A stretch of DNA of 36,353 nucleotides from a virus: positions 1-36,353 of IMG/VR virus record IMGVR_UViG_3300028840_000732. One strand, written 5' to 3'. The notes under the pieces are model-generated. The model had not been told where the DNA came from and did no database searches. It saw only the letters and a list, made by a program, of their open reading frames with translations. A program made the position numbers and the translations under genes. Positions 3,914-36,353 of the stretch are shown here, in pieces; positions within the stretch are counted from its first letter, which is position 1; the number at the start of each line of letters is the position of its first letter.

Positions 3914-3931
3914 GGCTTCGTGGTTTATTGG

Positions 3932-5474: not shown

Positions 5475-5589
5475 GAAACACACGGAAAACATGGCGAACG
5501 CGAAGCGACCCCACCCCCGTCCAGGATCGCGTTTTCCTGGGACGGACTCACCCCCGCCCGACGCCATATAACCCACAACGGGAGCCTCT

Positions 5590-17434: not shown

Positions 17435-18395
17435 AGACCGTGGCCAGCTACATGGATTCGCTAGGGCGCTAAGAGAAGAGTCAGTGTCACTGCAACTCCA
17501 TGTGGACACCATGGACATCAATAAGAAGTTGATAGATGCTGTAGACGGCTTCCGTCCAGACATTGTATTTCTACAGATTCAGGGCGAGGGACGAGTTCGC
17601 ACAGAAGTTATTGAGGAGATATCGAGAGTATGTCCATATATATACAACTGGACTGGAGATGTTCGTTCTAAGATACCTGAGTGGTACTATGAAGTGGCTC
17701 CATACGTTGTAACGCTATTCAGTAACAAGAAGAATGTCGAGGACATGCGTAAGGACGGCTACCGCACAGACTTCTTGCAGATAGGATACGACCATAAGAT
17801 ATTCAAGCCTACGGGCCCTAAGTTGGCTGCTGCTCCAATCGTATTCATGGGGAACCACTACCATCAGAAGTTTCCTAACTCAGACATGCGCTATAAGATG
17901 GCAAAAGTCCTGACTAAGAAGTATGGAGAAGAGTTTGGCCTGTTTGGTGGTGGATACCCTCCGAGAATGATCAAGAACGCACGTAACATCATGCTCAGTC
18001 AGAATACAGAGGCGTCGATATACCGTGGTGCTGAAATGGCGATATCGTTTAGCCACTTCAACTATGAGGGGTACTTCTCCGATAGACTGTTGAGGATTAT
18101 GGGTTCCGGATGTTTAGCAATCACCCATCCATATCCAGGCGTTGAAGAAGACTTTAACGATGAAGAGCATCTATTGGTGTTCAAAACGAAGGCTTCGAGA
18201 ATAAACACTGAAGCTGCGTATGAAGATTTTAAGGGGCTGATGTCATTAGTACGTCACTACAGGGGTAAGACCTATCAGAAGAAAGCCCGAAGGATAGCAC
18301 GTCAGGGAGAAGAATTTGTCAGAAACAACTACACATATAACCACATGGTTAGGAATATCATTGAGTTACACCGAGAATGGAGGAATAAGTTATGA
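17397..18395 (+). CDS. GT-B glycosyltransferase, CgeB-like
   Basis: A 332-residue protein. It starts MDRILHVGLNAPKDRG, a GT-B N-terminal Rossmann strand. YIYNWTGDVRS and VAPYVVTLFSNKKNVEDM are typical of CgeB/spore-maturation-like transferases. The C-terminal half has the donor-binding region: IYRGAEMAISFSHF then RLLRIMGSGCLAITHPYPGVEEDF (about 203-247). It probably transfers a nucleotide-activated sugar. It overlaps the next glycosyltransferase by 4 bases. The acceptor could be the virion or the host surface. Confidence 0.8.
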   Translation: MDRILHVGLNAPKDRGQLHGFARALREESVSLQLHVDTMDINKKLIDAVDGFRPDIVFLQIQGEGRVRTEVIEEISRVCPYIYNWTGDVRSKIPEWYYEVAPYVVTLFSNKKNVEDMRKDGYRTDFLQIGYDHKIFKPTGPKLAAAPIVFMGNHYHQKFPNSDMRYKMAKVLTKKYGEEFGLFGGGYPPRMIKNARNIMLSQNTEASIYRGAEMAISFSHFNYEGYFSDRLLRIMGSGCLAITHPYPGVEEDFNDEEHLLVFKTKASRINTEAAYEDFKGLMSLVRHYRGKTYQKKARRIARQGEEFVRNNYTYNHMVRNIIELHREWRNKL

Positions 18396-20112: not shown

Positions 20113-20494
20113 GTTAGAGCGACCCAAAGGGCTATCTGATGCTGAATACATTAAATACCTTGAAAACAGGGTTTTTGAATTATCGGCATCCAGCACTACG
20201 GCTAAGATGTATCGTGGCCTAAAGAAACAGGCTGACGACTTGGCTGTGTTGCTGAGTAAAAAGATAGTGGTCGAAGGTAAGGAGGTAGACTTGTTCCACC
20301 CCACCTCAATATCTGACGCTTCGGATAAGACATTTGAGCGAATGACAAAGTTGTTCAAGGAGGTCTGGCCTATGCTTAAAGACCTTGACGAGATGGAGGA
20401 GAAGATATCCCCTATAATGGAGTTTATTGATGATAAGCAGAAGCCTGGGGGTGCAATGGAGGAGCTATTGAATGAGTCCAAAGAAGAGAAATAG
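20093..20494 (+). CDS. Candidate small terminase subunit or packaging partner
   Basis: A 133-residue, helical, charged protein overlapping the large terminase gene by 23 bases. It starts MSKSKNKLERPKGLSDAEYI, has a probable coiled coil (about 20-50) and acidic helices (KDLDEMEEKISPIMEFIDD). Position directly before TerL and size fit TerS, but there is no clear DNA-binding HTH, so this is an inference from context. Confidence 0.5.
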   Translation: MSKSKNKLERPKGLSDAEYIKYLENRVFELSASSTTAKMYRGLKKQADDLAVLLSKKIVVEGKEVDLFHPTSISDASDKTFERMTKLFKEVWPMLKDLDEMEEKISPIMEFIDDKQKPGGAMEELLNESKEEK

Positions 20495-22655
20495 AGTTCA
20501 GAGCCCTAAGAGCTTTCAGCGAAAGAGAACAATCGGCGAGTATGAGATAACGCTGCCCGAACCACCTCATAAGACTGAAATAGCTGGTCACGACCTGCCT
20601 ATGAAGGAGCAGCGTTTTACGCCTCCTGATCAGTCGTATGTTAAAAGACTGTCACGAATAATATCTGGAAATAATGCTGATAATAAGTCGTGGAGGATAG
20701 GCTTAGAAGATGAGGATGTCGCCTTCGTAAAGAGGGAGCTAAGGAGGAGGAATGAGGGTTATTGGTTCTACAACAACGGAAACATAGAATACATTACGGG
20801 GTTGCACTACTTCTATTGTGCCTATTGGTACTTAGATGATGGGCTCCCATTCTTCGTTGATGCAGATAGAGACTTCTACTATGTGTGGGATCACTGCGAG
20901 AAAGACCCAAAGTGTTACGGATTAGTGTATATCTGTGACCGTCGTTCAGGAAAGACATACAAAGGAACAAACATAATCTATGAAGCAACGACTAAAGCGA
21001 AAAACGCACAGTCTGGTATACAGAGCAAAACTGACGGGGACGCTAAAAAAGTATTCCGGAAACTCGTCCACGCATGGAAAAAGCTCCCAGAGTTCTGGCG
21101 GCCTGTTTCGTCGTCAGGATCAAACCCAAAAGAGGAACTGAGATTTGAAGAGCCTTCGAGAAGGGCTAGTGCCAATAAGCATTTTGACTACCAAGATGTT
21201 CTCGATAGCTTTATCGACTACCAACCGTCTACCGAAGAAGCCTATGATGGCTCTAAACTGTTAAGGGTGTACCATGATGAGATAGGAAAGAAAACTAAGA
21301 TAGACATTCGTAATAGGTGGTATATCGTTAAGCCCTGTCTCGAAGTTGGTGGTAAGGTTATCGGTAAGGCGTACCTATCCTCTACTGTTGAAGACACTGA
21401 TAGAAAGGGCGTTGATGTTGTAAGTAAAATATGGGATGAGTCAGATCCCAATAAGAGAAAGGGGGACGGCACTACAATGTCCGGTCTATACCGACTATTC
21501 AAGCCAGCACAATATGGGTTCTTCTCATGTGTAGATGAATACGGGTATACTGTCGTTGAAACACCCGAAAAGCCATACATAAACATCTATGGTGATGAGA
21601 TGACGATAGGATCCCGCGAGTGGCTGAGAAGGCGTCGTGATGGAGTCCATGGCAACGACCTTAATATCGAAAGGCGTAAGTATCCAATGGATATCAATGA
21701 CGCTTTCATTAAGGATTCTAAGGGAGAGACGTTCCCAACCTACAAAATTCAGGAGCAGAAAGAGTGGAACGCCACTGTTGTTTCTGACGGAATCGTAACA
21801 GGAAACTTCGTGTGGGGCAATCCGGACACTAAGAGAGGTGTGGAATTTCAGGTAGACCCCAATGGTAAGTTCAATGTGGCGTGGATGCCTCCGGCAGATC
21901 AGCGTAACCTGATCAGAGACACGGGGAGATTTGTCGCCCCTAAAGACCCTTCTGGTGGTGGCATAGGTGTTGACCCCTTTGACCATGATCAGACAGTATC
22001 AGGAAAGAAGTCCAATGCAGCAATCTATGGGTTCCGCAGCTACACGCCCACGGAGATGTATGCCTCCAATATGTTCGTATTCGAGTATGTTAATAGGCCA
22101 GCCCTATCCCAGGTGTTCTACGAAGATGTTATGAAGGTTTCCATGTTCTACGGATGGCATGCTCTGATAGAGAATCAGAAGCCATGGTGTATACAGTGGA
22201 TGAAAAACCAAGGATTCTACGGGTATGTGAAGAGGCTTCAGAGAAAAGACTACACTAAGGACTCTACCGGAAAGTGGACTGACGGTATATCTATGGCTGG
22301 AGAGGCTGCCCGACAATACTTGGTAGACCAACTAAACACCTATATCTACAAATTTGTTGGCTCTATAAGTGATAAGGTGCAGATAGAAGATTTAGGAGTA
22401 AGTCCTAACGACCTGATATCGGATATGTACGGTAAGTGTTCCTTTGATCACCTACTGAATGACTGGTTAAGATTCGACGTGAATAACTGGACTGAGTATG
22501 ATGCCACGGTAGCGTCAGGGCTTGCCATTGTGTGTGCTATAAAAGATAGGGCTAAGAGAAGGCAGGAGGAAGAGGATAGTAAAGAAGGTAGAGAGAAGCG
22601 CCCTAAAGACTTTCCGTTCCCGCTATTCGACAGGCATGGCAATAGGATAGGATGA
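20472..22655 (+). CDS. Large terminase subunit (TerL)
   Basis: A 727-residue packaging motor. The ATPase domain has Walker A CDRRSGKT (155-162) and Walker B LLRVYHDE (263-270). The RuvC-like nuclease domain begins GIGVDPFDHD (497-506) with D501 and further acidic residues, followed by a conserved FVFEYVNRP segment. It is large for TerL (typically 450-650) and of the size seen in crAss-like phages. It would pump DNA into the prohead and cut concatemers. It is followed by the portal gene, as expected. Confidence 0.9.
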   Translation: MSPKKRNRVQSPKSFQRKRTIGEYEITLPEPPHKTEIAGHDLPMKEQRFTPPDQSYVKRLSRIISGNNADNKSWRIGLEDEDVAFVKRELRRRNEGYWFYNNGNIEYITGLHYFYCAYWYLDDGLPFFVDADRDFYYVWDHCEKDPKCYGLVYICDRRSGKTYKGTNIIYEATTKAKNAQSGIQSKTDGDAKKVFRKLVHAWKKLPEFWRPVSSSGSNPKEELRFEEPSRRASANKHFDYQDVLDSFIDYQPSTEEAYDGSKLLRVYHDEIGKKTKIDIRNRWYIVKPCLEVGGKVIGKAYLSSTVEDTDRKGVDVVSKIWDESDPNKRKGDGTTMSGLYRLFKPAQYGFFSCVDEYGYTVVETPEKPYINIYGDEMTIGSREWLRRRRDGVHGNDLNIERRKYPMDINDAFIKDSKGETFPTYKIQEQKEWNATVVSDGIVTGNFVWGNPDTKRGVEFQVDPNGKFNVAWMPPADQRNLIRDTGRFVAPKDPSGGGIGVDPFDHDQTVSGKKSNAAIYGFRSYTPTEMYASNMFVFEYVNRPALSQVFYEDVMKVSMFYGWHALIENQKPWCIQWMKNQGFYGYVKRLQRKDYTKDSTGKWTDGISMAGEAARQYLVDQLNTYIYKFVGSISDKVQIEDLGVSPNDLISDMYGKCSFDHLLNDWLRFDVNNWTEYDATVASGLAIVCAIKDRAKRRQEEEDSKEGREKRPKDFPFPLFDRHGNRIG

Positions 22656-22693
22656 TTAGCTTTTGGAGTAAATTCTAAAGGTTACAAAATCCT

Positions 22694-22701
22694 TATCTTT
22701 G
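22694..22701 (+). promoter_or_regulatory. Host-like -7 element TATCTTTG before portal
   Basis: It matches TAnnTTTG, 19 bases upstream of the portal ATG. A GGTTACAA copy (22680-22687) is next to it but lacks the second early-promoter element. Confidence 0.5.
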
Positions 22702-22720
22702 CATCAAACAGTATGTTGTA

Positions 22721-25168
22721 ATGGCGAAGTATTCTGAGGCACACGTAAAGGCGAAATGCCAAGCCAATCCGTTTCCTAATGACCACATAGACCCTAAAGT
22801 AAAGGATGACCCCAGTTTTGGCGTCAAAGTGGGTTCTGCAATCTATTGGAGGCATTGGGATCAATTCGTAATCTCAGGACACCAGCAAGAAATACGCACC
22901 AATAGACTGTACGCTCAGGGGAAGCAAGACTCAGATCAATACATCCCTAAGTTAGACCCGCAGTTAACGCAGCCGGGTTCCGGACTATACAACAACATTG
23001 ATTTCTCTATCGTTTCCCCGATGCCTAAGATTATAGACATCATTGTAGGAAACATCATAAATACAGACTACAAAGTACATTTCGATGCTATAGACCCGTA
23101 TGCCGAGACTGAACGCTCAGAAGCATACGACGACCTGTACGGTAGGATGATCAAACATGAGGTGGCTAAAAAGTTGGAAGATGAGCTTGGAGTGCCGTTA
23201 GAGCCGCGACACGATTTTGTTCCCGCCAATGAGGAGGAGATAAACCTGCACATGGAGTTAGGGTACAAGCCTGACATCTGTGTAGCCATGGAGGAGATTG
23301 TAGACTTCGAGCTTCTGAGAAACGATTGGGAGACGGTAAAAAAGCGAGTGGTAAGAGACTTGGTGGAGAACTACAAAGGATTTGTCCGGATATGGTTCGA
23401 CTACAACAACAAGATTCGCATGAGATATGTGGATATCGAACATGTGGTTCATCCGTACACTAACGACCCTCGATTCAACGACTGTAACTACTTCGGAGAG
23501 GTTAAGATGATGTCCGTAAGAGAGCTTAGGGAGATTGTTCAGAAGAAGGGGTTCCAGAAGATTACAGAAGAAGACCTGTTCAAGGCGGCTAGACAGTCTG
23601 CCAGCACAAACGGAAACGGAGACTGGAGATGGGGTAGCCACTACAATGAGGATGGGTACTACCAAGGAGAGCCATACGCATACGATGACTACCGAATAGA
23701 GTGCTTAGACTTCCTATTCTACAGCTATGACCTAAAGAATTGGGAGTGGAAAGAGAATAAGTACGGGAACCACCACCTTAATGAGAAGGGGTTCACCTAT
23801 GAAGCGCCCAAAGAGTCTAAGTACAATAAGGAGCGTATCTCTAAAGGTGTGGAGATGGAGTATGAGGGGCTATACATCACCTGCATCAATAAGATGGGTT
23901 ATTGGGGAAAGGGCAAGAACATGATCAGACCCCGTGGTGCTGACTACATATCCTCAGATCTGTTCAAGAAATTTCAGGGCTATCAGATAAACCCACGGTA
24001 CGGGCGTCGCAACCCTATTCCGGAAAAGGTTAGAACGCACCTTGACAACATTCAGTTGATATCCTTGAAGATGCGTCAGGTGGTGGCAGAATCTACGCCT
24101 CCAGGAATTGCTATTGACGTAAACTCTTTGAACGATGTAGTAATTAAGGGTGTGGACATGCAGTCCATGGACTTGATAAAGCTATACAAGCAGAAGGGTA
24201 TACTCATATTCGACCGACAGGGTATTGACGGTGAGTACATGAATGGCAAGCCTATTGAGGAACTTCGCAATGGCATACAGGATAGCCTTCGGCCACTCAT
24301 GGAGGCGATACAATTTGAGGTAGAGCAGATAATCACTGAGACTGGCATCGGGCCTATGGATGCACAACAGCCTGATGAGAAAGCGCTCGTAGGTATTCAA
24401 AAGCTACAGATACTAAATGCTAACAACGCCTTCCGAGAGCTATTCCAAGCGTGGGCTGAGGGTATCTACCAACCTACCGCCATGACTATTGCTCGAATGG
24501 TTCAGGATAAGGCAGAGGACTTCGGGTTGAAAGACTATAGGCCTGTTATTGGAAAGCTCGGTGTAGCTCCTATAGAAACATTAGAGAGTAGGATTACCTA
24601 CCTAGAGTTGGGCATTAAGACTGAGATGCTTCCGGGTGCAGAGGAAACAGAGCGTCTAAGAGAGACGGTTAATAAGGCTGTCGAAATAGGCGATATCACC
24701 ATGGAAGACAGCATGGAGATCATGCGAATGTCTAACAACAAGAAAGCAGAAGCAATGCTAAAGTACCGTAAGAGGGTGCGTCAACAGGAGAAGATAGAGA
24801 TGCAGCGTCAGCAGGAGGAGATCGTAGGTCAGCGAGAGATGGCTGTAACACAGGCGAGAAGTCAGGCAGAAGCGCAGAAAGAACAGGTTAAGTACGATTT
24901 AGAGCTGAGAAACTTAGAGAAGGAGTACGAGTTGAAGATGAAGTTGCAGCAGGTAGTAAATGAAGGGTGGAGACTACGTGACCACATCCAAGGTAAGAAC
25001 AAGCTCGACCAAATAGAGCTGGCTAATGAATTGGCAATGGAGAGAGAAGACGTAAAAGAGGAGAAGGAGGACGAGCCGAACATAGGCGATACAGGCAATA
25101 CTATTCCGGGGATGCGTGATCCCGAATTGGGAACAAACCCTATTGGCGCAGCTCAGGACATAAAATAA
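22721..25168 (+). CDS. Portal protein
   Basis: An 815-residue protein directly after TerL, of the length usual for portals of crAss-like and other short-tailed phages. Features: an N-terminal SAIYWRHWDQF region, NNIDFSIVSPMPKIIDIIVGN (residues about 90-110, exceeding neither wing nor stem limits), a clip/stem region near FQGYQINPRYGRR to KGVDMQSMDL, and a C-terminal coiled coil (QQEKIEMQRQQEEIVGQRE, about 688-750). It would form the 12-subunit ring through which DNA enters. The assignment rests on position, length and domain character. Confidence 0.85.
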   Translation: MAKYSEAHVKAKCQANPFPNDHIDPKVKDDPSFGVKVGSAIYWRHWDQFVISGHQQEIRTNRLYAQGKQDSDQYIPKLDPQLTQPGSGLYNNIDFSIVSPMPKIIDIIVGNIINTDYKVHFDAIDPYAETERSEAYDDLYGRMIKHEVAKKLEDELGVPLEPRHDFVPANEEEINLHMELGYKPDICVAMEEIVDFELLRNDWETVKKRVVRDLVENYKGFVRIWFDYNNKIRMRYVDIEHVVHPYTNDPRFNDCNYFGEVKMMSVRELREIVQKKGFQKITEEDLFKAARQSASTNGNGDWRWGSHYNEDGYYQGEPYAYDDYRIECLDFLFYSYDLKNWEWKENKYGNHHLNEKGFTYEAPKESKYNKERISKGVEMEYEGLYITCINKMGYWGKGKNMIRPRGADYISSDLFKKFQGYQINPRYGRRNPIPEKVRTHLDNIQLISLKMRQVVAESTPPGIAIDVNSLNDVVIKGVDMQSMDLIKLYKQKGILIFDRQGIDGEYMNGKPIEELRNGIQDSLRPLMEAIQFEVEQIITETGIGPMDAQQPDEKALVGIQKLQILNANNAFRELFQAWAEGIYQPTAMTIARMVQDKAEDFGLKDYRPVIGKLGVAPIETLESRITYLELGIKTEMLPGAEETERLRETVNKAVEIGDITMEDSMEIMRMSNNKKAEAMLKYRKRVRQQEKIEMQRQQEEIVGQREMAVTQARSQAEAQKEQVKYDLELRNLEKEYELKMKLQQVVNEGWRLRDHIQGKNKLDQIELANELAMEREDVKEEKEDEPNIGDTGNTIPGMRDPELGTNPIGAAQDIK

Positions 25169-25178
25169 TAAGATTCAT

Positions 25179-25186
25179 TACTTTTG
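25179..25186 (+). promoter_or_regulatory. Host-like -7 element TACTTTTG
   Basis: It matches TAnnTTTG and lies 35 bases before the scaffold-like ATG. Confidence 0.45.
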
Positions 25187-25221
25187 CATAAGTTACAAAT
25201 ACATTAAAATCAAGTTTAATT

Positions 25222-26367
25222 ATGGATGGTTTTGATCTGCCTATCGAAAAGGTTGCTGAAGCCCTTGGCGGCAAAGGCGCCGAAGGCGAAGAGAAAGATG
25301 ATAGTTCTTTGAATAATGAACAGGAAGGCGAACAGCAAAGTAAGCCTGAAGGTTCTCAAGAGGCGCAAGAGTCTCCAGAAGGTGAAACCGAACAGAAGCC
25401 TGAAGGCGAGAGTGGTCAGGAAGGTTCGGAGAAGCCTGCGGAAGAAGGTGCGGAAAAACCTGCGGATGAAAAGGTAGGGGAGCCCGAACAGAAGCCATAT
25501 GAGGACACAGAGCAGCCCAAAGAGGAGGTTCCGTCATTTAAGAATATCAACGAAGTATACGACTATGTTGATGACAAGTTGTATGAAGAGCATGGAATAA
25601 CGCTTGACGACTACTATGACATAGATGGCGTTGATTATGACGACATGGCTGAGAACGATGAGGTTGGACTCATTACTGAGTGGATGTACTTGGAAAACGA
25701 AAATATCAATGACAAAATCATTGATGCAGAGCTATCTAGGTTTGACGCACTATTCGTAAGTGATGAGGAGCGTCAGGAAATGATTGACAACGATGAGATA
25801 ACCGAACGGGAGCTTGACAAACTAGACGCTGAATTTGAGCGAATGAAGCTGAAGGCATTGAGTGATATGAAGTCAATGCAAGACAGCCTTCCTAACATAG
25901 ATGATATTGAGTTTGGCATTGGTCAGGCAGCGACGGCTGATCAACCAAACAAAGAGTATATCGAGCAGCTAACAAACCAAGTTCGAGATAACATAGGGAA
26001 GTACGATAAGGAAACCTTTGAAATCAAGGACGCTAATGGTGAAGTTGTCGGAAGCATCAACTACGAATTAAACCAAGACGATAAGTCGGCGGTAGAGGGT
26101 TCAATGGTCAATGGCCTGATGAGCCGATATGTTGATGACTCCGGAAATGTAGACTTCGGAAAATGGCAGCAAGATATGTTGGTGGTGAACAACCTTGACA
26201 AAATCCTAAACCTCGCTTGGCAGGAGGCTAGTGCTAAAGCCGAGAAAGGAACGGTCGATAAGATCAACAACAAGGATTTTAGTTCAGGAAGTGAGCCTAC
26301 CGGAAATGAAACACAGAAAACGTCGGGTTTTGAACGAATGTTGAGAAGCAGTCGTTTCGGGGATTAA
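25222..26367 (+). CDS. Acidic scaffold-like protein
   Basis: A 381-residue protein between portal and capsid, where scaffolds are encoded. Residues about 20-110 are a low-complexity, E/G/K/Q/P-rich acidic stretch with repeated KPEG/EGE units. The centre and C-terminus are helical (ELDKLDAEFERMKLKALSD, then RMLRSSRFGD). It would direct prohead assembly and then leave or be cleaved. No protease gene is recognisable in the window. Confidence 0.75.
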   Translation: MDGFDLPIEKVAEALGGKGAEGEEKDDSSLNNEQEGEQQSKPEGSQEAQESPEGETEQKPEGESGQEGSEKPAEEGAEKPADEKVGEPEQKPYEDTEQPKEEVPSFKNINEVYDYVDDKLYEEHGITLDDYYDIDGVDYDDMAENDEVGLITEWMYLENENINDKIIDAELSRFDALFVSDEERQEMIDNDEITERELDKLDAEFERMKLKALSDMKSMQDSLPNIDDIEFGIGQAATADQPNKEYIEQLTNQVRDNIGKYDKETFEIKDANGEVVGSINYELNQDDKSAVEGSMVNGLMSRYVDDSGNVDFGKWQQDMLVVNNLDKILNLAWQEASAKAEKGTVDKINNKDFSSGSEPTGNETQKTSGFERMLRSSRFGD

Positions 26368-26408
26368 AGAGAAAAAGAAAAAAACAATAACGACAAAACG
26401 ATAAAACA

Positions 26409-27842
26409 ATGGCAAGTCCTACTGCTTATCAGCAGGGTGGTTTTGATACCCCCCGGTCGAATAACTTTCTGAGTTATTACGACGCATTAAAGCCGGACGT
26501 AGACCCACAACTATATAAGGTCTTCGGAAAGCAAAAGTTAAACTTCTTCGGTGGTATGCTAGAGTATTTCGGTGCTGAGGCTCCGACATCTCAGCTTGAG
26601 TACCGTTGGTATGAAGAGGCTCGAAAGTATCCTAAGATCCGCGCTACTAACGCCGGAGCTGGAGCTGCTGGTGCTTCTGTAACATTCACTCTTGCGGCTA
26701 ACGCATCTGTGTCTTACGGAAACGCATCTCCTTATGATACGTCGGTTACTCCTAACCAAACGGCTATTCCGGTTCGTGAGAACGATATCATCGAGATCAA
26801 GCCAGCGACAGGAACGACTGCATCTTCTGGAAACTACATTCAGGCTTTCGTTACTTCGGTAAACAAGTCTGCCGGAACATTTGCAGCTACTCCACTGAAC
26901 GATGCTGATTCTATCCCTTCTATCTCGACTGCGGACGAAATCATCATCATCGGTAACGCTTCTGGTGAATTCTCTACTACTCCTGATGCAATGCAGGATG
27001 AGTATGATAAGTACACCTCTAACTTGCAGATCATCCGTGAGACATGGGAGAGCTCTAACACAGCTCAGCACCTTATGGAATGGGTTGATCGTGAGAAGGG
27101 TCTTTACATGTTGAAAGGTGAAGATGCGGGTACTGTACGAGCTATGAACAAGCGTGACCTTACGCTGCTTCTTCAGGAGCCTCTGTCTAACACTGCTCTT
27201 GCTAACTCAGCGTTCCCTGTGACGAATCCAGGTACTACCACTCGTGGTCTAGTATATGAGTTCATCGACCGAGGTAACGTGAAGAACTATAACGCTGTTT
27301 CAGGTCTTACTCTATCTGACCTTGAAGACCACGTTGTTGTTCTACAGAAGGCTAAGGCAGGTAACGACCACATTATGATGGTTGGGCCAGACCTTGACCT
27401 ACAGCTTGACCGTGAGTTGCGAGATGTATTGAAGAACGGAGCAATCCAGTATGGTAGCTTTAACGGCGATCAGGATAAGACTGTTGACCTTGGGTTCACC
27501 AGCTTTAAGATCGGTTCTACAATGTTCCACAAGCGTTGCCTTGAGTCATTCGTTGACCTTCAGACAACCGGAGCATCAGGATATGGCTACTCTTACGAAG
27601 GATTCCACTTCCCTACTAAGAACGCTACTATCCAAGGTGAAGACCGTATGCCTGAGCGAGTGCCTACGATTCGTATGCGATACCTTGCTAGCAATGGTAA
27701 GAGCCGCGCGTTTGAGACTTACCTTCACAACGGCCTTGAGCAGGGTGATACAGGTAAGGACTTCTTGCAGGTTCGATACATCATGCAGGTTGGTTTCCAG
27801 CTTATCGGAGCTAACACTACTGGATACTTCAAGCGATCCTAA
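26409..27842 (+). CDS. Major capsid protein (HK97-like)
   Basis: A 477-residue protein after the scaffold, of the size seen in crAss-like phages (about 490). It has an N-arm (MASPTAYQQGGFDTPRSNNF), an inserted beta-rich domain (about 85-180, many A/T/S/N), the helix LDRELRDVLKNG, and a C-terminal segment LQVRYIMQVGFQLIGANTTG resembling the P-domain. An acidic-linker region lies at DEYDKYTSN. The role is assigned by position and length; a terminator follows. Codon use is strongly biased toward GCT/GGT-type codons, as expected of the most abundant protein. Confidence 0.85.
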   Translation: MASPTAYQQGGFDTPRSNNFLSYYDALKPDVDPQLYKVFGKQKLNFFGGMLEYFGAEAPTSQLEYRWYEEARKYPKIRATNAGAGAAGASVTFTLAANASVSYGNASPYDTSVTPNQTAIPVRENDIIEIKPATGTTASSGNYIQAFVTSVNKSAGTFAATPLNDADSIPSISTADEIIIIGNASGEFSTTPDAMQDEYDKYTSNLQIIRETWESSNTAQHLMEWVDREKGLYMLKGEDAGTVRAMNKRDLTLLLQEPLSNTALANSAFPVTNPGTTTRGLVYEFIDRGNVKNYNAVSGLTLSDLEDHVVVLQKAKAGNDHIMMVGPDLDLQLDRELRDVLKNGAIQYGSFNGDQDKTVDLGFTSFKIGSTMFHKRCLESFVDLQTTGASGYGYSYEGFHFPTKNATIQGEDRMPERVPTIRMRYLASNGKSRAFETYLHNGLEQGDTGKDFLQVRYIMQVGFQLIGANTTGYFKRS

Positions 27843-27855
27843 GTTTTGACTATAC

Positions 27856-27890
27856 GGGAGCCCCGCCTTTTGGTTGGGGTTCCCTTTTTT
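27856..27890 (+). terminator. Rho-independent terminator after capsid gene
   Basis: GGGAGCCCC pairs with GGGGTTCCC (one G-T pair) around a loop of 11 bases, followed by six T residues. Confidence 0.85.
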
Positions 27891-27917
27891 ATTGCCTAAT
27901 AATTAAAATCTAATATA

Positions 27918-29021
27918 ATGCCACAATTAAGCACACCAAAGGCTCCAAAGGAGTCAGAGGTTACAAGCCTCGCAGAAATAGCTCGCGAGAGAGCTAAAGA
28001 AAAAGACACTTGGGTATTCCGTTTGAAGCGAAAGAAGTACAACGGTAAGTTCCCATTCTCAGAGAACATTCCTTCTATTTGTGAAATCTTCGACCCTATC
28101 AAGGGGCATAACCGTACAATCGTCTATAAGGCGGGTTCACACACGGTATTCCTTGATGAGATGTCAGATGACGATAAGGATAGAGCCTTAAAGCGACCTA
28201 CCAGTATTCTAATTCAGAACGGCGCTTTATCGGTTAGTAATCGAGAGACAAACCTATTAACATTCTTGCTATTGTCTGGCAATGTTGCTGGAGGCGTTAA
28301 TGACGAGCACCGTATTCCTGGACGTTCTATTATCGCTGAAGTATTCGATAGCGAGTCTAACGCATTGAAGCGTAACCATACCCGTGAGCGTAGAATCAAA
28401 GTTGAGCAGACAATCCTCGACATGGATCCTCACGGAATTAAGGCGCTTGGTATGGTGACTATCGATAACCATGGTTCGCTATCAGCTATCGAGCGTTACT
28501 CCACAAGTGAGATTCGCGACATCCTACTAAACATTGCGTTTAAGAATCCGGATAAGATATTCGAGAAGCTGAACGATCCTAAGAGTAAGAATCAGTATAT
28601 CATCAGTAAGGCTATATCGCGTGGCCTATTACAATTTGATGAACGTGCTAACACCATCCTAAATCAAGACGGCGAGTCTATCCTGACAGCCCATGGTCGA
28701 AATGCTGTTCTACACATGTCTGACTTAGCTACTAAAGATCAGGAGTGGATGAACTACGTAGATGAGTTGCGCGACCTGATAGAGCCTAAGAAGAAAGATG
28801 ATGAGAATTTTGATAACTCTTCTGAGCCTTCCGGAAAGGTAGATTGGGTAGACGCTCTGATCACTGAGTTGAAAGAGGCTGGTGTAGTTCGCCTCAAGAG
28901 CATGAACTTCTACTTCAAAGGAGAGAAGGGCGATGAGGAGAAACTGACACCCACTCAGCTGAAAGACCGAATGAAGAAAGATGGAAAATTCTTGGAATTT
29001 CTTGCGAGTCAACTGAAGTAA
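27918..29021 (+). CDS. Putative virion protein, unknown
   Basis: A 367-residue protein in the slot directly after the capsid gene (MPQLSTPKAPKESEVTSLAE...). It has helices and basic patches throughout and no recognisable enzyme motif. The C-terminus VDWVDALITELKEAGVVRLK and LTPTQLKDRMKKDGKF is helical. It may be a head-completion or neck protein, or a cargo protein injected with DNA. Its unit ends with a terminator at 29076. Confidence 0.55.
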   Translation: MPQLSTPKAPKESEVTSLAEIARERAKEKDTWVFRLKRKKYNGKFPFSENIPSICEIFDPIKGHNRTIVYKAGSHTVFLDEMSDDDKDRALKRPTSILIQNGALSVSNRETNLLTFLLLSGNVAGGVNDEHRIPGRSIIAEVFDSESNALKRNHTRERRIKVEQTILDMDPHGIKALGMVTIDNHGSLSAIERYSTSEIRDILLNIAFKNPDKIFEKLNDPKSKNQYIISKAISRGLLQFDERANTILNQDGESILTAHGRNAVLHMSDLATKDQEWMNYVDELRDLIEPKKKDDENFDNSSEPSGKVDWVDALITELKEAGVVRLKSMNFYFKGEKGDEEKLTPTQLKDRMKKDGKFLEFLASQLK

Positions 29022-29075
29022 TACTATATTGCGACAACGTTTTTCTCATGGCGTTTCATATTGGTAAAGGGAGAG

Positions 29076-29104
29076 AGGGAGCTTATGGCTCCCTTTCTTT
29101 TTTA
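29076..29104 (+). terminator. Rho-independent terminator
   Basis: AGGGAGC-TTATG-GCTCCCT followed by a T-rich run. Confidence 0.85.
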
Positions 29105-29109
29105 TTGGT

Positions 29110-29117
29110 TATCTTTG
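29110..29117 (+). promoter_or_regulatory. Host-like -7 element TATCTTTG
   Basis: It matches TAnnTTTG, 24 bases before the ATG at 29142 and immediately after a terminator. Confidence 0.5.
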
Positions 29118-29141
29118 TAATCGTTACGAAAAGGTTACAAA

Positions 29142-30734
29142 ATGGCGTTAAGCACGGTAAATTTCAAGGTTACATTTGACTACGCTGCATCCACAAAGGA
29201 GTTTGATTTTGAGGACACCACGGACTATTCAGGACAGGGAGTATCTAAAGCTGTCGCTGCTGGCGTTTTCAAGATTGTGGCTCCTGACGGCTCAGTAGTA
29301 TATAACAACACTAACTTCGGATCCCCTGATATAGACCCTGACACGTCTTTGACGTTCTCAGGGGTGGCCCTACCGCTAATGGGTGACGGCTCGGTAATGC
29401 AGGGAGACTATGTATTCACTTACACCGTTCAGGTAGCCGGAGGGTCGATTAGCCAATCATACACTGTTTTGAGGTCTAAGACTGTAACGCTAAACTACTC
29501 AGAGCCCACGATAGACCTTGATATTACTGTTGACTGCAACCTACCACTACTGACGTCTACAGACAATACTTCTTACGCCGTTAATGGCATAACCCCTACG
29601 ATCAATAGTCGTGATCACCGTATACAGTATCCGGCAGTAGCTAATAAGGCTGAGGTTAACGGAGGCGATTCTAAGACGGTAACGACATCAACGGTATATG
29701 TTGTAAAGAATCAGAACTTACAGTACACTAGCACGATTACTACGCTCGTCACTTACAGTCTTGGTGGTGATGCTTTCATCTACGATAGTATATCCGGAGC
29801 CACCCGTGCTGACGTTGCATGTGACCCCAACCTATGTGATGTTTATTGTGGCATACATACGCTATGGGATAAACTTCAGGCAGCTAAGGGTACAGCGCGA
29901 GAAGAAGTTCTAAGAGAGAAGTTCGAGTACGTATGTGCTATTGCTTTCGCTGCATCACAGGCTATTCGCTGCGGAAAGTCTGCTGACGTATCGGAATACT
30001 TGGTGCAGATAAAGAAAATTGGTCAATTTGACGACGGGTGTGGGTGCTCTAATGGTGAGCCTGTGCTAGTCCAAGGATTGAACGGTAACGGTCAAACATT
30101 CGTTGTTGACGCTGGAGGCGGTATTGACGTGACTGTTGTTACTGCTGGAGGAACCACGACATACACTGTGGAGCTAGAGCCAGCGTTGCTAACCAAGCTG
30201 AACAACTCGTATAATACTACGGTGAGCGCAGGTTCGGGTGTGACGGTTACAGAAACTACTGATGCTTCGGGGAATAAGAACTATGAGGTTGCGAACACCT
30301 TGAGTATATCCACTCCTGACATACTAACGTTTGACGTTACTATTACGATGAATCCCGGGAAAGTCCCCACGGTAACGATTAACGACAGCAAGGTGTACGG
30401 TAATGTGTTTTCTTCAGGAGGCTTGTCGGTGGACAATAACAATACAGGTGCTAGTTGGGGTACGAGTGCTAATTCATTCCAAGTGTCTGGATTCTTGATC
30501 GCTCCCACAACACACTATATGACTGGATGTGATATTATGGAATCTACATTAGTAGGTGGTTCATCGACAAAAGCTGATGACGGGCAGAGAATCAGTATAG
30601 AGTTTGTAGAGTGGGGAGGAACTAACGATCAGCATAACATTTCGATAGTAACGTCGAGTGGCGCTCCGATGTCTGGGGCATTGCTTGACAATGTGCTGGA
30701 GAGCGTAAGGTTTAACATAACATTTATGGCATAA
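29142..30734 (+). CDS. Putative tail or appendage structural protein
   Basis: A 530-residue protein. The N-terminal part (1-200) is beta-rich with T/V/S repeats. A central helical, cysteine-containing block (CDPNLCDVYCGIHTLW and CAIAFAASQAIRCG) lies at about 225-290. The C-terminal part (about 310-530) is a G/T/V-rich fibre-like region ending in a jelly-roll-like ISIVTSSGAPMSG. Similar mixed proteins form tail appendages. Its stop overlaps the next start (TAATG). Confidence 0.6.
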   Translation: MALSTVNFKVTFDYAASTKEFDFEDTTDYSGQGVSKAVAAGVFKIVAPDGSVVYNNTNFGSPDIDPDTSLTFSGVALPLMGDGSVMQGDYVFTYTVQVAGGSISQSYTVLRSKTVTLNYSEPTIDLDITVDCNLPLLTSTDNTSYAVNGITPTINSRDHRIQYPAVANKAEVNGGDSKTVTTSTVYVVKNQNLQYTSTITTLVTYSLGGDAFIYDSISGATRADVACDPNLCDVYCGIHTLWDKLQAAKGTAREEVLREKFEYVCAIAFAASQAIRCGKSADVSEYLVQIKKIGQFDDGCGCSNGEPVLVQGLNGNGQTFVVDAGGGIDVTVVTAGGTTTYTVELEPALLTKLNNSYNTTVSAGSGVTVTETTDASGNKNYEVANTLSISTPDILTFDVTITMNPGKVPTVTINDSKVYGNVFSSGGLSVDNNNTGASWGTSANSFQVSGFLIAPTTHYMTGCDIMESTLVGGSSTKADDGQRISIEFVEWGGTNDQHNISIVTSSGAPMSGALLDNVLESVRFNITFMA

Positions 30735-32215
30735 TGAGTGCGATACAATATTTAGGTAATGGTAATGGTCGGCTGTACGTTGTAGAGCCTGATGGCACTA
30801 CGGTAAACCGATCGTTCGTCAACAATCAACAGGGTGTTCGTGATTTTAAGGCTTTTGGCACTGTAGCTGCATCCATACAAGCGCGGTCTGCGGAAGGTAA
30901 GATTACAGTCGATACTATTGACGCAAGCGGAGGTACATTTCTGATTTTGATTAACGCTTCCTCGGTTGGGGGCACAACGAATTATGCTGGAGGTACTACC
31001 ACGTCAGAGCTTGCTGAAGATATCACTGACGTTATCAACGCCAGTAGCGATACGTATGTAGCTGCACACGCTGGAGATGATGTTTACATCAGGACGGTAA
31101 ACCCAGGCGTTGAGGCTAATGGGTATGCCATCTCTATTGTCGATGGGTCGTCTACTAAGTATACTATTGAAAACATGGCGGGCGGTTCCGGTAGTGATCA
31201 GATTTATGACCCTCAAGATGGTTTTCGTTTCTTCATAAACGCTAACTTTGATTCTTCCGGATGTGCTGGGTGTGGTTCTAACGCCCCTGCTTTCGACCTG
31301 ACAAACGCTGTCGAAATAACGGACTTTATCGTAACTCAGTCGCTACAGAACAATCCGTACACTGATACTATTACAATCAGTAGTGGTGTAGTCATTCCTT
31401 CACGCAAGGCTTCGGATATGACGTTCAGGGTTGCCGGAGAAGGTGCTGCTGCTGATAATCTCGACACGATAAACATTAGTGGGTCTTCTGACGGTGATAA
31501 GATACATTTGGTTGCTGCTAGCTCTGGAGCCGCGATTACGGTAAAGCATAACAACGGTAACATTAAGCTGGCTACGGGTGCTGATTTAGTCCTGACCAAC
31601 CCTCAAGACCGCCTGACGTTACAGTGGGACTCTGAGGAGAACGAGTGGATGGAGCTATCTCGCGGTGGTTCGTCTACCATCGCTGCTGGAGCTGTCGATA
31701 CTACTGAACTTGCCGCTGGAGCTGTAACAACAGCAAAGATTGACGCTCTTGCTGTAACATCTGCTGAGTTAGCTGCTGATGCTGTCACTACGGTAAAGAT
31801 TGCTGACGATAACGTAACCACCGCAAAAATTGCGGATAATAATGTTACGGTAGCAAAAGTGGAGGACAGCCTGACGTATGAAGCGTTTGTTGTTCCGGTA
31901 TCGTTTGAGACTGGAGAGCAGTGCGACAACAAGTGGAAAGCTCCCTTTGATTGCGCAGTTACAGATATTTACGCTATCGTTACGAAGGCTATCGCCGGAA
32001 CGGATTCTGGCACGATAACCCCTAAGAACAACGCTGGGACAACAATGACTGGCGGAGTGATCACATTCTCCGCATCTGCTGCGTTGAATACGGCTCAGAC
32101 GTCTACACCATCAGCAAACAACACGCTGTCAGACGGTGATGTTATGAGCCTAACCACAGCTAAGTCTACCGCTGGAGGTAAGGCCCTTGTAACTATTCAT
32201 GTAACTAGGACGTAA
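30734..32215 (+). CDS. Tail-fibre-like protein with repeated TTAKI units
   Basis: A 493-residue protein. Residues about 318-380 contain repeated units of about 10 residues (AGAVDTTEL, AGAVTTAKI, ALAVTSAEL, ADAVTTVKI, DDNVTTAKI, DNNVTVAKV), the pattern that builds triple-beta-spiral-like or coiled shafts in phage fibres. An N-terminal beta-rich region includes CAGCG (175-179). The C-terminal 110 residues would be the receptor-binding tip. It probably helps host recognition. Repeat units may allow length variation by recombination. Confidence 0.75.
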   Translation: MSAIQYLGNGNGRLYVVEPDGTTVNRSFVNNQQGVRDFKAFGTVAASIQARSAEGKITVDTIDASGGTFLILINASSVGGTTNYAGGTTTSELAEDITDVINASSDTYVAAHAGDDVYIRTVNPGVEANGYAISIVDGSSTKYTIENMAGGSGSDQIYDPQDGFRFFINANFDSSGCAGCGSNAPAFDLTNAVEITDFIVTQSLQNNPYTDTITISSGVVIPSRKASDMTFRVAGEGAAADNLDTINISGSSDGDKIHLVAASSGAAITVKHNNGNIKLATGADLVLTNPQDRLTLQWDSEENEWMELSRGGSSTIAAGAVDTTELAAGAVTTAKIDALAVTSAELAADAVTTVKIADDNVTTAKIADNNVTVAKVEDSLTYEAFVVPVSFETGEQCDNKWKAPFDCAVTDIYAIVTKAIAGTDSGTITPKNNAGTTMTGGVITFSASAALNTAQTSTPSANNTLSDGDVMSLTTAKSTAGGKALVTIHVTRT

Positions 32216-32220
32216 GGTTT

Positions 32221-33009
32221 ATGGCTATCGACATAGATAAGTTTAAGCGATTTGTAGACTTCATCTCTAATAAGAATGGCAGAGGAACGATAACCCCTCC
32301 TGACTTCAACTTAGCTGCTGAATCAGCACTGAAAGAGTGGACGATGAAGCAGTACAATAATGAGGAGGAGTATCAGCCAGGTCGTCCTATTCCTAGGTAC
32401 GGATATGAGATGACCACTAAGATCACGGATAATCTCAGACACCTAAAAGAGGTTAGGGAGTTTGCCCCTGATGATGGCTCGATAGACGTTCCTAATGGCA
32501 CCACTACGGACATCAATAAACAGGTGTGCCCAGCATACCTACACTTTAGCTCTATGAGGGCTGTCTATAAGGTGTATGAAGGAACTACCGATAATAACAT
32601 CTGCGGTTATAGTCCCACTGATAAGGAGACACGTCCGGTAAAAGAATACGAGAACGACGTAAAGCTAGTGCGTGATGATGAGCTTGGAGATTATTTGGGG
32701 AGTAGTATTATCTATCCTTCTGTATCTGATCCGATCTGCACGTTATATTCGTCTACTGTTCAGATATTCCCGAAGAAGGGCATCCATCGTGTTAAGTTTA
32801 CGTACCTCCGTCAACCTGACATCCCGAAATGGAGCTATATTGTTGTTAATAACCGCCCTGTGTATGACCCCTCTAATAGCGTTGATATCGACGCGCCAGA
32901 AGAAGCGTTCAACAAGATAGCTATGGGGGCATTGTCGTTCCTAGGTATCAGCATTAGGGAGCCTGAGTTAGTACAGTATTCGGAAGGGATGAAAAGCAAA
33001 GGAGTATGA
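32221..33009 (+). CDS. Putative head-tail connector or tail protein
   Basis: A 262-residue protein with helices at the N-terminus (MAIDIDKFKRFVDFISNKNG; SALKEWTMKQYNNEEEY), a beta-rich middle and a C-terminal helix (APEEAFNKIAMGALSFLGIS). This is the layout of adaptor or tail-tube-like connector proteins in short-tailed phages. The next small basic gene overlaps by 4 bases. Function inferred from position. Confidence 0.55.
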   Translation: MAIDIDKFKRFVDFISNKNGRGTITPPDFNLAAESALKEWTMKQYNNEEEYQPGRPIPRYGYEMTTKITDNLRHLKEVREFAPDDGSIDVPNGTTTDINKQVCPAYLHFSSMRAVYKVYEGTTDNNICGYSPTDKETRPVKEYENDVKLVRDDELGDYLGSSIIYPSVSDPICTLYSSTVQIFPKKGIHRVKFTYLRQPDIPKWSYIVVNNRPVYDPSNSVDIDAPEEAFNKIAMGALSFLGISIREPELVQYSEGMKSKGV

Positions 33010-33161
33010 GTCTATACGAGAACATTCATAAGAAGCGTAAGCGCATTGCTGCTGGATCAGGAGAGAAGATGCGTAAGGTTGGTCAGAAGGGAGCTCCTAC
33101 TGATAAGGCTTTTAAGAAGGCCGCTAAGACGGCTAAGAAAAACAGGTCGTACAAGAAATGA
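33006..33161 (+). CDS. Small basic virion-module protein
   Basis: A 51-residue Lys/Arg/Ala-rich protein (MSLYENIHKKRKRIAAGSGE...). The start overlaps the connector stop (ATGA) and the end overlaps the next gene (ATGA). Proteins beginning MSLYxNIHxKRKRIxxGSxEKMRK recur in uncultured tailed phages, usually in the structural region. The function is not known. It probably binds nucleic acid or packaged DNA. Confidence 0.75.
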   Translation: MSLYENIHKKRKRIAAGSGEKMRKVGQKGAPTDKAFKKAAKTAKKNRSYKK

Positions 33162-33403
33162 AGATCAGGAAGACAACAAAGGGTAAGGGTCGTAATTTCA
33201 GGACTGTTGAGGAAGGCGCCGGAATGACTAAGAAGGGTGTCCGTGCTTATAGGCGTAAGAACCCAGGTTCTAAGCTGAAGACTGCCGTTACTGAGAAGAA
33301 TCCTACTGGCAAACGCGCTGCCAGAAGAAAGTCTTTTTGTGCTCGTTCTAAGGGGTGGACTGGAGAGCGTGGTAAAGCGGCTCGTCGTAGGTGGCGATGC
33401 TAA
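33158..33403 (+). CDS. Small basic protein, DUF6321-like
   Basis: An 81-residue protein (MKIRKTTKGKGRNFRTVEEG...). GAGMTKKGVRAYRRKNPGSK (about 21-40) and RRKSFCARSKGWTGERGKAA (about 57-76) match a conserved phage protein with GxGMTxKGVxxYRRxNPGSKLKTAVT and SFCARS motifs. It probably belongs to the DUF6321 group. It overlaps the previous gene by 4 bases. Its TAA stop lies within the left arm of the attC-like site, so the gene end and the recombination site are joined. Confidence 0.75.
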   Translation: MKIRKTTKGKGRNFRTVEEGAGMTKKGVRAYRRKNPGSKLKTAVTEKNPTGKRAARRKSFCARSKGWTGERGKAARRRWRC

Positions 33404-33448
33404 CGTCGAATAAACCCCATTGAAACGGTGTTTATTCAGATGTTGGCT
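33398..33448. other. attC-like site A (left boundary of the RM cassette)
   Basis: TGCTAAC (33398-33404), then GAATAAACCCC (33408-33418), a short loop, GGTGTTTATTC (33427-33437), then GTTGGCT (33442-33448). The inner arms pair 10 of 11. This is a compact attC layout of about 51 bp; the predicted cut point is G33442/T33443. Confidence 0.7.
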
Positions 33449-33485
33449 GCAAGGCTGCAAAAAACAAAAATTTCAGTTAAGTTGA

Positions 33486-33493
33486 TAACTTTG
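33486..33493 (+). promoter_or_regulatory. Cassette promoter, host-like -7 element TAACTTTG
   Basis: It matches TAnnTTTG, 14 bases before the methyltransferase ATG and inside the cassette, so the RM genes can be expressed at any insertion point. Confidence 0.5.
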
Positions 33494-33507
33494 TACAAAC
33501 AAATAAT

Positions 33508-34890
33508 ATGATTACAAAACAGTACATAGACGAACTCAAAAAAGAAGGAAATGGTGCTATTGGCGAGTTAGTCAAATCTCAAAATGACGGTAGCGGAATC
33601 GTCTATATACTTGAGAACTTAGGGTATCTGCCCAATGACTTTGACGGCAGCTGGTTGCCTGACCTGTTAGAGCATAAAAACAAACATGTTCGTCTTTGGG
33701 CAACCAAAACAATCGGGAAATTAAAGGACACGACCTACATACCACATTTGGAAAAGACTGCCTTAAATGACGAAGTGACGGAAATTAGACGAGAAGCCGT
33801 TTCGTCAATAGGCAGACAACGGTCTGAAAACGCGAAAGAAATACTTTACAAGATTCTTGGCGACACTGACCCAAAAATAGTATGTCAAGCAATTAGAGCC
33901 TTATTAGTATTTAAAGGCAAAAAAGAAGTTGACGAAAAACTCAAGTCACTTATTAATCATGAAAATGAAATGGTGACAAAAGTTATTTACAAGGAGTATT
34001 TCGCAAAATCAAACGAGAAAACGTCTGAACAACCGCATACTGAATCTTACGATTTTTTAAAAAATGTAGTTGTCAATGATGATGTTCGTGAGGTTCTTAA
34101 ACTCATTCCTGATGAAAGTTTTCATTTAACCTTCACCTCCCCTCCATATTACAATGCACGAGACTACTCTATTTACCCAAGCTATCAGGCGTACTTAGAC
34201 TTTTTAGAAGAAGTTTTTCAACTGACTTACAACAAGACCAAAGAGGGACGCTTTCTCATTGTAAACACTTCGCCAATCATAATCCCAAGGATTAGCCGAC
34301 AACATTCTTCTAAACGTTATCCTATTCCTTTTGACATTCATCATTTCCTAGTTCAAATGGGGTGGGAGTTCATTGATGATATTGTTTGGGTAAAGCCTGA
34401 AGCAAGTGTTAAGAACAGAGTTGGCGGATTCATGCAGCATAGAAAGCCACTTGGATATAAACCAAATGCTGTGACTGAATATTTAATGGTTTATCGCAAG
34501 CAAACATCCAAACTCCTTGATTGGAACATTCGACAATATGACAGGGAAACAGTTGAAGAAAGTAAAGTTAAAGGTGATTTTGAGTCAACAAACGCTTGGC
34601 ACATAGACCCGACATTCAATAAAGTTCATTCTGCTGTATTTCCTATTGAACTCTGCAAAAGAGTTATTGAGTACTATAGCTACAAAGGAGATTTGGTATT
34701 TGACCCATTTGGAGGCAGCGGAACCTTTGGACGAACGGCCAAAAGTATGGACAGGCACTTTTTCCTTACAGAACAAGAACCCAAATACTTTGAATACATG
34801 AAAACACATTTTAAAAACGATAGCTTATTCAAAGAGAGAAAGACACAGTTTTTATCATTGAAAGAGTTTAATAAGACAATCAACAAATGA
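33508..34890 (+). CDS. DNA methyltransferase (m4C type) with N-terminal HEAT-like repeats
   Basis: A 460-residue protein. Residues about 25-165 carry HEAT-like helical repeats (e.g. NKHVRLWATKTIGKLKD, DEVTEIRREAVSSIGRQ, DPKIVCQAIRALLVFKG), an unusual N-terminal addition that could contact DNA or the partner endonuclease. The catalytic part follows: TSPPYYNARDYS (210-221) is motif IV with the SPPY of N4-cytosine (beta-class) enzymes, and FDPFGGSGTFGR (398-409) is the SAM-binding motif I. Motif order IV before I indicates class beta. It overlaps the endonuclease gene by 4 bases and would protect phage DNA from it. Confidence 0.9.
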   Translation: MITKQYIDELKKEGNGAIGELVKSQNDGSGIVYILENLGYLPNDFDGSWLPDLLEHKNKHVRLWATKTIGKLKDTTYIPHLEKTALNDEVTEIRREAVSSIGRQRSENAKEILYKILGDTDPKIVCQAIRALLVFKGKKEVDEKLKSLINHENEMVTKVIYKEYFAKSNEKTSEQPHTESYDFLKNVVVNDDVREVLKLIPDESFHLTFTSPPYYNARDYSIYPSYQAYLDFLEEVFQLTYNKTKEGRFLIVNTSPIIIPRISRQHSSKRYPIPFDIHHFLVQMGWEFIDDIVWVKPEASVKNRVGGFMQHRKPLGYKPNAVTEYLMVYRKQTSKLLDWNIRQYDRETVEESKVKGDFESTNAWHIDPTFNKVHSAVFPIELCKRVIEYYSYKGDLVFDPFGGSGTFGRTAKSMDRHFFLTEQEPKYFEYMKTHFKNDSLFKERKTQFLSLKEFNKTINK

Positions 34891-35804
34891 CACTAACGGA
34901 ACAAGTAGCAAAGAACATTATCAAAAAACTCCTTAATGGAGCAGATTATAGAATAGAGGTTGTAACTCTAATAAATGCTGAGTTTCTTCAATTTGCCATT
35001 GACTTTTTCAAACAAATTGTTAACGCCAAACTGAACAATCAAGAAATAGATGTTGATTGGTACAAGAAAGCATTCCTTCTTGACCCAAGCCTTTCCAAAG
35101 AGGAAATTGCAATCAATTCAGGTCTAAACATGAAAACCATTAGCAACATGTTTAATTCAACCAAGAAGGAAGTAGTAATTGATGCCTCAAATGACCATTA
35201 TGAAACTCTTTACAATTCAATAAAGGAGCTTGTAGAATCGGAAAATGAACTTGACCTGACATTAACCATCAAGCTAAAAGGAGTTTCAGTTGATTTGAAC
35301 GTAAGCGAAAGCCTAATTGTAATAAACACATTAGCAGTTAAGCGAGCAGCTTTAAGGGGTGGACTTTGGAGTACAGCCGGAAAAAGAGTAGAAAAACCAT
35401 TAATGCAAACCCTTTGTAAACTTTATCAAGTTCCTGCCAGCAATTATAAATCAGTAATGATTGGCAGCACAACTGATGAAGCATTTGAAAGGGAAATTGA
35501 CTTCTACTTACTGCATGACGGAACTGAATATAAATGTGAAGTAAAGCTAATGGGTAAAGGAAATCCAGAAAGTGCAGACGCTGTAATAGCAAGGGACAGC
35601 AAAGTATTTGTTGCAGACAAACTTTCAGATACTAATAAGGCTCAACTTGACAGTTTAAATATTGAGTGGGTTGAACTTCGAAACTCTCATGGCTTTAGAC
35701 GTTTTAAGACCGTTTTGGAAAATTTAGATATTCCGCATACCGACTATAGTGACGACAATATTGATGAAGATGTGACTGAAATTTTTAACGAAATATTTGA
35801 ATAA
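34887..35804 (+). CDS. Type II restriction endonuclease, CfrBI-like
   Basis: A 305-residue protein. Catalytic residues of the PD-(D/E)XK fold are visible: EREIDFYLL with D205, and CEVKLMGKG with E218 and K220. Helical N-terminal half (e.g. FLQFAIDFFKQIV) and NTLAVKRAALRGGLWSTAGK (147-166) resemble what I recall of the CfrBI family, which pairs with an m4C methylase and recognises CCWWGG. I could not verify this. It starts on ATGA overlapping the methyltransferase stop and ends just before site B. If active, it would cut unmethylated competing phage or host DNA. Confidence 0.8.
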   Translation: MTLTEQVAKNIIKKLLNGADYRIEVVTLINAEFLQFAIDFFKQIVNAKLNNQEIDVDWYKKAFLLDPSLSKEEIAINSGLNMKTISNMFNSTKKEVVIDASNDHYETLYNSIKELVESENELDLTLTIKLKGVSVDLNVSESLIVINTLAVKRAALRGGLWSTAGKRVEKPLMQTLCKLYQVPASNYKSVMIGSTTDEAFEREIDFYLLHDGTEYKCEVKLMGKGNPESADAVIARDSKVFVADKLSDTNKAQLDSLNIEWVELRNSHGFRRFKTVLENLDIPHTDYSDDNIDEDVTEIFNEIFE

Positions 35805-35814
35805 AAAAAGCCCT

Positions 35815-35946
35815 GCAGCCAACAAAGTATAAAAGCAATGGCGGCAGACAAGTAAAAAGAAAGTTTAGTGCTTAAACAAAACATGGTGGCGGTGGACAGG
35901 AAAGTATCTTGAAAACCGCCACTGCTTTTATACAGAACCGTTAGCC
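35815..35946. other. attC-like site B (right boundary of the RM cassette)
   Basis: GCAGCCAAC (35815-35823), then GTATAAAAGCAATGGCGG (35827-35844), a loop of 71 bases, CCGCCACTGCTTTTATAC (35916-35933), then GTTAGCC (35940-35946). The long arms pair 17 of 18. Total length of about 130 bp is within the range of large attC sites such as VCRs. Predicted cut at G35940/T35941. Confidence 0.75.
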
Positions 35947-36353
35947 TTAAAGCCTACGGTGATGGGCCACTTCAGCTTTCCACTGATAAGAATTGGAGGA
36001 TGTTCCCACATTTAGAGGGCTTTGGTAAGAATGAGATCTCCGACCCTCACGAAATAGAATCAATTTTTAACAGTGAAGCTTTTGCTGAGTTTGGTAAGAT
36101 GAATGTAATGCCGCTGATATACGATGAAAAAAAGAAGCGCTGCAATATTTTAATCTACGACTCTGAAAAAGCAATGTTAAACACTCATAAAATTGTGAAA
36201 AATATCGCTGGTCGTGGTCGAAAGCACCCTGTATATGTATTCATTGACAAAGAAGATAACTACATAGCTGAAGTAAGATATGGTAATGCTACAGCTAATG
36301 CTCTTCAAAGAGGTCTTTGGACGCACACTAAGAATGCTTTACCATACTTTGAT
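35913..36353 (+). CDS. Open reading frame of unknown function, truncated at both ends
   Basis: This frame is open from 35913 (through the right arm of site B) to the window end. From 35949 it reads protein-like: KAYGDGPLQLSTDKNWRMF, then PHLEGFGKNEISDPHEI, LIYDEKKKRCNILIYD, GRGRKHPVYVFIDKEDNY and ANALQRGLWTHTKNALPYFD. There is no ATG, GTG or TTG before ATG 36000, and restoring the pre-insertion sequence supplies none. Either translation starts at 36000 (GGAGG directly before the ATG is too close to act), or the gene has lost its 5' end. The QRGLWTHTKNA segment looks like a conserved motif, but I cannot name the family. Confidence 0.55.

Follow-up and report, generated by a model that had tools for sequence, protein, structure and literature searches.

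The window, that is, the whole stretch of DNA analysed here (36,353 bp), is the entire IMG/VR virus record IMGVR_UViG_3300028840_000732. From 20.5 to 33.4 kb it carries an unbroken late operon of a Bacteroidota podovirus-type phage, as assigned by PHROGs matches, followed by a restriction-modification (RM) operon and by the remainder of a second restriction endonuclease gene. The features of this part of the window are as follows, with a slash marking the join in G/TT.

20472-33009, plus strand: phage late operon with terminase, portal, coat protein, fibre-like protein and gp112-like structural protein (PHROGs)
33009-33158, plus strand: 50-aa phage gene (phrog_16028), its start overlapping the preceding gene
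33158-33403, plus strand: complete DUF6321 phage gene, overlapping the preceding gene; final phage gene ahead of the cassette
33398-33448, plus strand: 51-nt hairpin resembling an attC only in its geometry (as DNA, z -4.15 and -4.30); its last G (33442) abuts the cassette
33442-33456, plus strand: 5' cassette end GTTGGCTGCAAGGCT, 14/15 bases paired with 35809-35823, mismatch at position 11
33443-35940, plus strand: gene cassette of 2498 bp, from the TT after G/TT to the final attC G (end pairing, attC match)
33486-33493, plus strand: promoter-like box TAACTTTG, Bacteroidota-type -7, 14 bases ahead of the start codon
33508-34890, plus strand: DNA methyltransferase of 460 aa with N-terminal HEAT repeats (PF01555, E 9.5e-34; PF13646)
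34887-35804, plus strand: CfrBI-family restriction endonuclease of 305 aa (PF09516, E 3.8e-24; PADLOC REase_II, E 1.8e-115)
35809-35823, plus strand: 3' end of the cassette, AGCCCTGCAGCCAAC, on the R'' side, pairing with 33442-33456
35817-35946, plus strand: attC site of a Bacteroidota family, 130 nt, R' completed by the right flank (R1 model, 67.9 bits, E 5.2e-16)
35940-36353, plus strand: second type II restriction endonuclease gene, 5'-truncated (from about codon 91) and running off the contig (PADLOC PDLC03568 (REase_II), E 7.5e-56, profile positions 93-229)

The late operon has distant relatives in Cellulophaga phi18:3 and the Flavobacterium elemo phages, and its gene order resembles that of one viral relative (L004). 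Since the DUF6321 genes of viral contigs mostly terminate in TGY-TAA, the window copy, which ends in TGC-TAA, is complete. Searches for close phage relatives through the terminase, portal, gp112 and DUF6321 genes returned distant ones only, and none had an empty site, so that the comparison with relatives lacking the cassette proposed in the preliminary description of this DNA yielded neither a near relative nor an empty-site phage. An Rfam search of the window gave no match. Between the phage replication and late genes (17397-19789), the window also carries a glycosyltransferase-like gene (18392-19789, PHROGs match) with a neighbouring 332-aa ORF.

The RM operon had been described as having its own promoter, and a promoter-like box is indeed present. 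The methyltransferase and endonuclease genes are undamaged and overlap by 4 bp. The endonuclease retains E203, D205, E218 and K220; in an alignment of 54 sequences, conservation at each of these positions is 97% or higher. At the sequence level the pair thus belongs with the CfrBI-type RM systems: PF09516 scores above the Pfam cut-off, the catalytic residues are present and an N4/N6 methyltransferase is adjacent, although the window methyltransferase differs in carrying N-terminal HEAT repeats. We compared it with 68 genome loci encoding the methyltransferase, most host copies of which are about 60-73% identical to that of the window. The -7 promoter type of Bacteroidota is TAnnTTTG, and such a box also occurs at most 80 bp upstream of the methyltransferase gene in 24 of the 68 other loci, so that the promoter-like box of the window recurs in many host copies. 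Scans for sigma-70 promoters and terminators gave site counts no higher than in shuffled sequences. Searching plasmids and viral contigs with the endonuclease returned nothing. For the putative recognition sequence, the CCWWGG of CfrBI-type enzymes, the phage part of the window showed no avoidance (25 sites seen against 24.8 expected).

The two ends of the RM unit pair with each other as the ends of a circular cassette would. Pairing of GTTGGCTGC at 33442 with GCAGCCAAC had been noticed before, and the complementarity proved longer than first claimed: 10/10 bases pair (GTTGGCTGCA), followed by one mismatch and four more pairs, 14/15 in total. To characterise the right-hand site, we used a covariance model (R1) built from 13 bacterial attC sites around orthologous operons, with the window excluded. 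R1 matched the window at 35817-35946 only. The preliminary description had placed attC-like inverted repeats on both sides of the operon. Repeats of 51 nt and 130 nt are indeed present, and when their bottom strands were folded as DNA both did better than shuffled sequences (z -4.2 on the left, -2.3 on the right), but the attC covariance check recognised the right one alone (E 5.2e-16); the left one, which has no match to R1, resembles an attC in geometry only.

We then asked, for consecutive sites of bacterial arrays, whether the 5' end of a unit matches the R'' in the 3' site that closes the same unit. At least five contiguous matches beyond GTT were found in 34 of 41 units, against 4.7% of random end pairs; in 14 Bacteroidota loci, 34 of 39 neighbouring units followed the pairing rule. 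Because most host units pair in this way (34/39), chance pairing is excluded, and the argument that the two ends must match because they adjoin in the circular cassette holds in host arrays. Counting the window cassette, 35 units pair; 97-100% of them match at positions 1-9, none at position 11 (0/35; the 5' base is A in all 35) and 63-86% at positions 12-15. The window cassette obeys each step of this extended end rule of host cassettes (L013-L066, L219-L227). With the attC match, the end pairing with its mismatch at position 11 and the orthologous cassettes in host arrays (see below), the earlier designation of the operon as a precise integron-type gene cassette is strongly supported by sequence comparison, with exact boundaries at 33443 and 35940.

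The same cassette had been expected in bacterial hosts, and orthologous operons were found there as attC cassettes: in about ten of the 68 loci the operon lies between or beside inverted-repeat sites of about 132 bp, and several of these loci show end pairing over 9-10 bases (for example GTTATCGGC/GCCGATAAC in L015, L021 and L059). Most orthologous operons among the 68 loci had no attC nearby. R1 matches occurred in 103 of 198 sampled Bacteroidota genomes, often many per genome, and in 4/199 and 2/199 genomes of two control phyla, where each was a single match of 29-51 bits, below the 67.9 bits of the window site. These counts argue for an attC family specific to Bacteroidota. A blastn search of the attC sites against phages found none. 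One other viral contig, L005 (IMGVR_UViG_3300006065_000007, 137 kb), has several R1-type attC sites; its positions of interest are 3876-5648 on the minus strand, 12086-12216 and record position 56474-56607. Also encoded there are phage HNH-type endonucleases and, just ahead of an endonuclease remnant, an RM methyltransferase of 69% identity.

Host arrays with these sites are headed by a tyrosine recombinase. In ten Bacteroidota arrays (L219-L228), all 44 R1 sites lie 3' of the recombinase gene and on its strand, and three loci (L013, L015, L066) hold the recombinase together with the RM operon, so that the cassette unit itself is met in recombinase-headed arrays. The catalytic residues are present in the protein, which can be aligned with IntI through to the C-terminal SPxD; it lacks the roughly 40 residues (the IntI additional domain) that stand between two conserved halves of canonical IntI. 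It scored 209 bits against the IntI family, for which the cut-off is 265 bits, and in the PDB it was matched best by XerC-like and XerA entries. In the tree it groups with IntI and apart from Xer (100/100 support), not resolved as a single clade. R1 sites were found in 61 of the 70 genomes with the recombinase and in 42 of the 128 without it (odds ratio 13.9); the 198 genomes are not independent, and the p-value of this co-occurrence therefore overstates the case. A motif resembling TATAAAnnAG/TT stands just before the first cassette in 7 of 13 loci (L015, L219, L221, L225-L228), about 70-110 bp past the recombinase gene, and is a candidate attI site. No tblastn match to the recombinase gene was found in the window, which is a fragment.

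Canonical IntI was also considered as the driver of these arrays and set aside: Bacteroidota IntI has no positive association with R1 (odds ratio 0.52, 198 genomes), and 30 IntI loci contained two weak R1 matches. Canonical IntI above the family cut-off is present in 57 of the 198 Bacteroidota genomes, almost never beside R1-type sites (L169-L198).

At the left join, the phage operon reaches 33403 unbroken, and no more than a few bases separate the join from the cassette boundary. The hairpin spans the DUF6321 stop to the G at 33442, its AAC overlapping the TGC-TAA gene end. No attI-like motif is present at this join, and the exact hairpin pattern was absent from viral contigs. It may be a phage hairpin that served as target.

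At the right join, the second endonuclease gene is cut exactly at the cassette end. Its first ~90 codons are missing and occur nowhere in the window; full-length homologues from bacteria and viral contigs (L074-L078) have about 90 extra upstream residues. The cut falls at a GTT-AGC codon pair, which a bacterial homologue (L078) shares, and it lies in an open frame; therefore the right end of the cassette is inside a coding sequence at G/TT. With the 5' part of this gene lacking, one clean insertion does not suffice to explain both flanks; a deletion between the hairpin and a G/TT site, a loss that followed insertion, or a contig that is chimeric or rearranged are possible causes. The flank beyond 35940 had no match in the phage collection, and eight host genomes with the RM operon lacked the right-flank fragment. 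Being a truncated endonuclease gene with no phage match, this flank leaves phage continuity on the left only. The operon had been placed in a phage structural region and said to have been captured by the phage: on the left both statements agree with the late operon and with the join at the cassette boundary, but neither extends to the sequence right of 35940. Homology of the right flank to phage gp113 was considered and rejected, and an endonuclease fragment (G176:C77) taken for a second insertion at the same codon was dropped, since it ends near a contig edge. In the viral contigs L074-L076, full-length relatives of the second endonuclease stand with no obvious adjacent partner methyltransferase.

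The reading that we favour, with a probability of roughly 0.68, is that an RM cassette from a Bacteroidota integron-like system was joined in trans to phage DNA at G/TT sites. On this view an IntI-related tyrosine recombinase of a host would have cut the operon out in circular form, using the folded attC at its 3' end, and the circle would then have been joined in trans to DNA outside an array at G/TT sites: on the right at GTT-AGC inside the endonuclease gene, on the left against the hairpin that ends the phage late operon. Action of the recombinase on these sites and insertion within the phage genome are the conjectural steps. So is any advantage for the phage. Methylation would shield the phage genome from hosts with this specificity, and DNA other than its own could be a target of the endonuclease. 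Such protection, or simple hitch-hiking, is no less plausible than the competitor weapon or addiction module suggested previously.

The rival that weighs most on the right flank is a chimeric contig, in which the phage ends at the hairpin and a bacterial RM cassette lying in an endonuclease gene was joined to it by amplification or assembly. The bacterial RM homologues of that flank at 70% identity, its G+C content of 38% against 46% in the phage, the missing start of the second endonuclease and the failure to find a second copy of the junction all fit such an artefact. A random join would rarely fall within a few bases of a cassette boundary and right after a phage hairpin, though, endonuclease genes of the same family (L074-L076) occur in viral contigs and one other viral contig has the same attC family; we therefore hold a chimera to be doubtful, if a serious contender. 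It is unlikely that a stretch of host array was acquired by ordinary or illegitimate recombination with no recombinase acting on phage DNA. Routes of this kind were proposed by Qi et al. (2023; PMC9892861), who described a terminator with an inverted GTTRRRY at a phage boundary, but here the left join coincides with a cassette end rather than with the interior of an array, and no attC of the R1 family lies to its left. An ordinary RM island, flanked by hairpins through chance and no cassette at all, would suit the wide exchange of RM operons and the many orthologous operons that have no attC nearby. It is nevertheless very improbable in view of the exact ends, the pairing and mismatch rule common to host cassettes and the full-length attC match.

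Cassettes in phages are already known. Qi et al. (2023; PMC9892861) reported attC clusters and methyltransferase cassettes in virulent phages without an integrase, and the window resembles these in having attC-bounded genes, among them a methyltransferase, next to phage genes; it differs in its complete RM pair, its Bacteroidota attC family and the truncated endonuclease at its right join. Insertion of cassettes outside integrons at attG sites (Loot et al., 2024, as relayed in PMC12901181) likewise places a cassette at a plain G/TT inside another gene, as far as that secondary account goes; in the present case the presumed source recombinase is of a different family and the target gene has lost its other side. 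With sedentary chromosomal integrons, the host arrays share a leading tyrosine recombinase, unidirectional attC-ended units and circular end pairing, and a candidate attI motif precedes the first cassette in 7 of 13 loci. They depart from these in a recombinase that lacks the IntI additional domain and runs parallel to the array, and in paired ends that reach about 15 bases with a fixed mismatch. Bacteroidota have been counted among the integron phyla (review, PMC8618304); IntegronFinder surveys at first recorded only In0 elements in Bacteroidetes and then one complete integron, in Salinibacter ruber (PMC9024848). For archaeal integrases, the additional domain served as the identifying feature (PMC9668308). 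We found no description of arrays with an integrase lacking this insert in the journal literature searched, where subscription papers were covered in part, and the insert-less system appears to be new.

Taken together, we lean towards the view that about half of the sampled Bacteroidota harbour a distinct integron branch, marked by an integrase with no IntI additional domain, by attC and attI forms of its own and by a longer paired end; it would supply complete defence cassettes, some of them reaching phages. Integrases are commonly recognised by the additional domain, which the recombinase of these host arrays does not have. If the insert-less recombinase works, cassettes can be recombined at attC without the additional domain, and a large pool of them in a major phylum has so far gone unnoticed. 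The window, with its RM cassette, would then, if the favoured reading is true, show directly how a phage can acquire a complete defence system through site-specific recombination.
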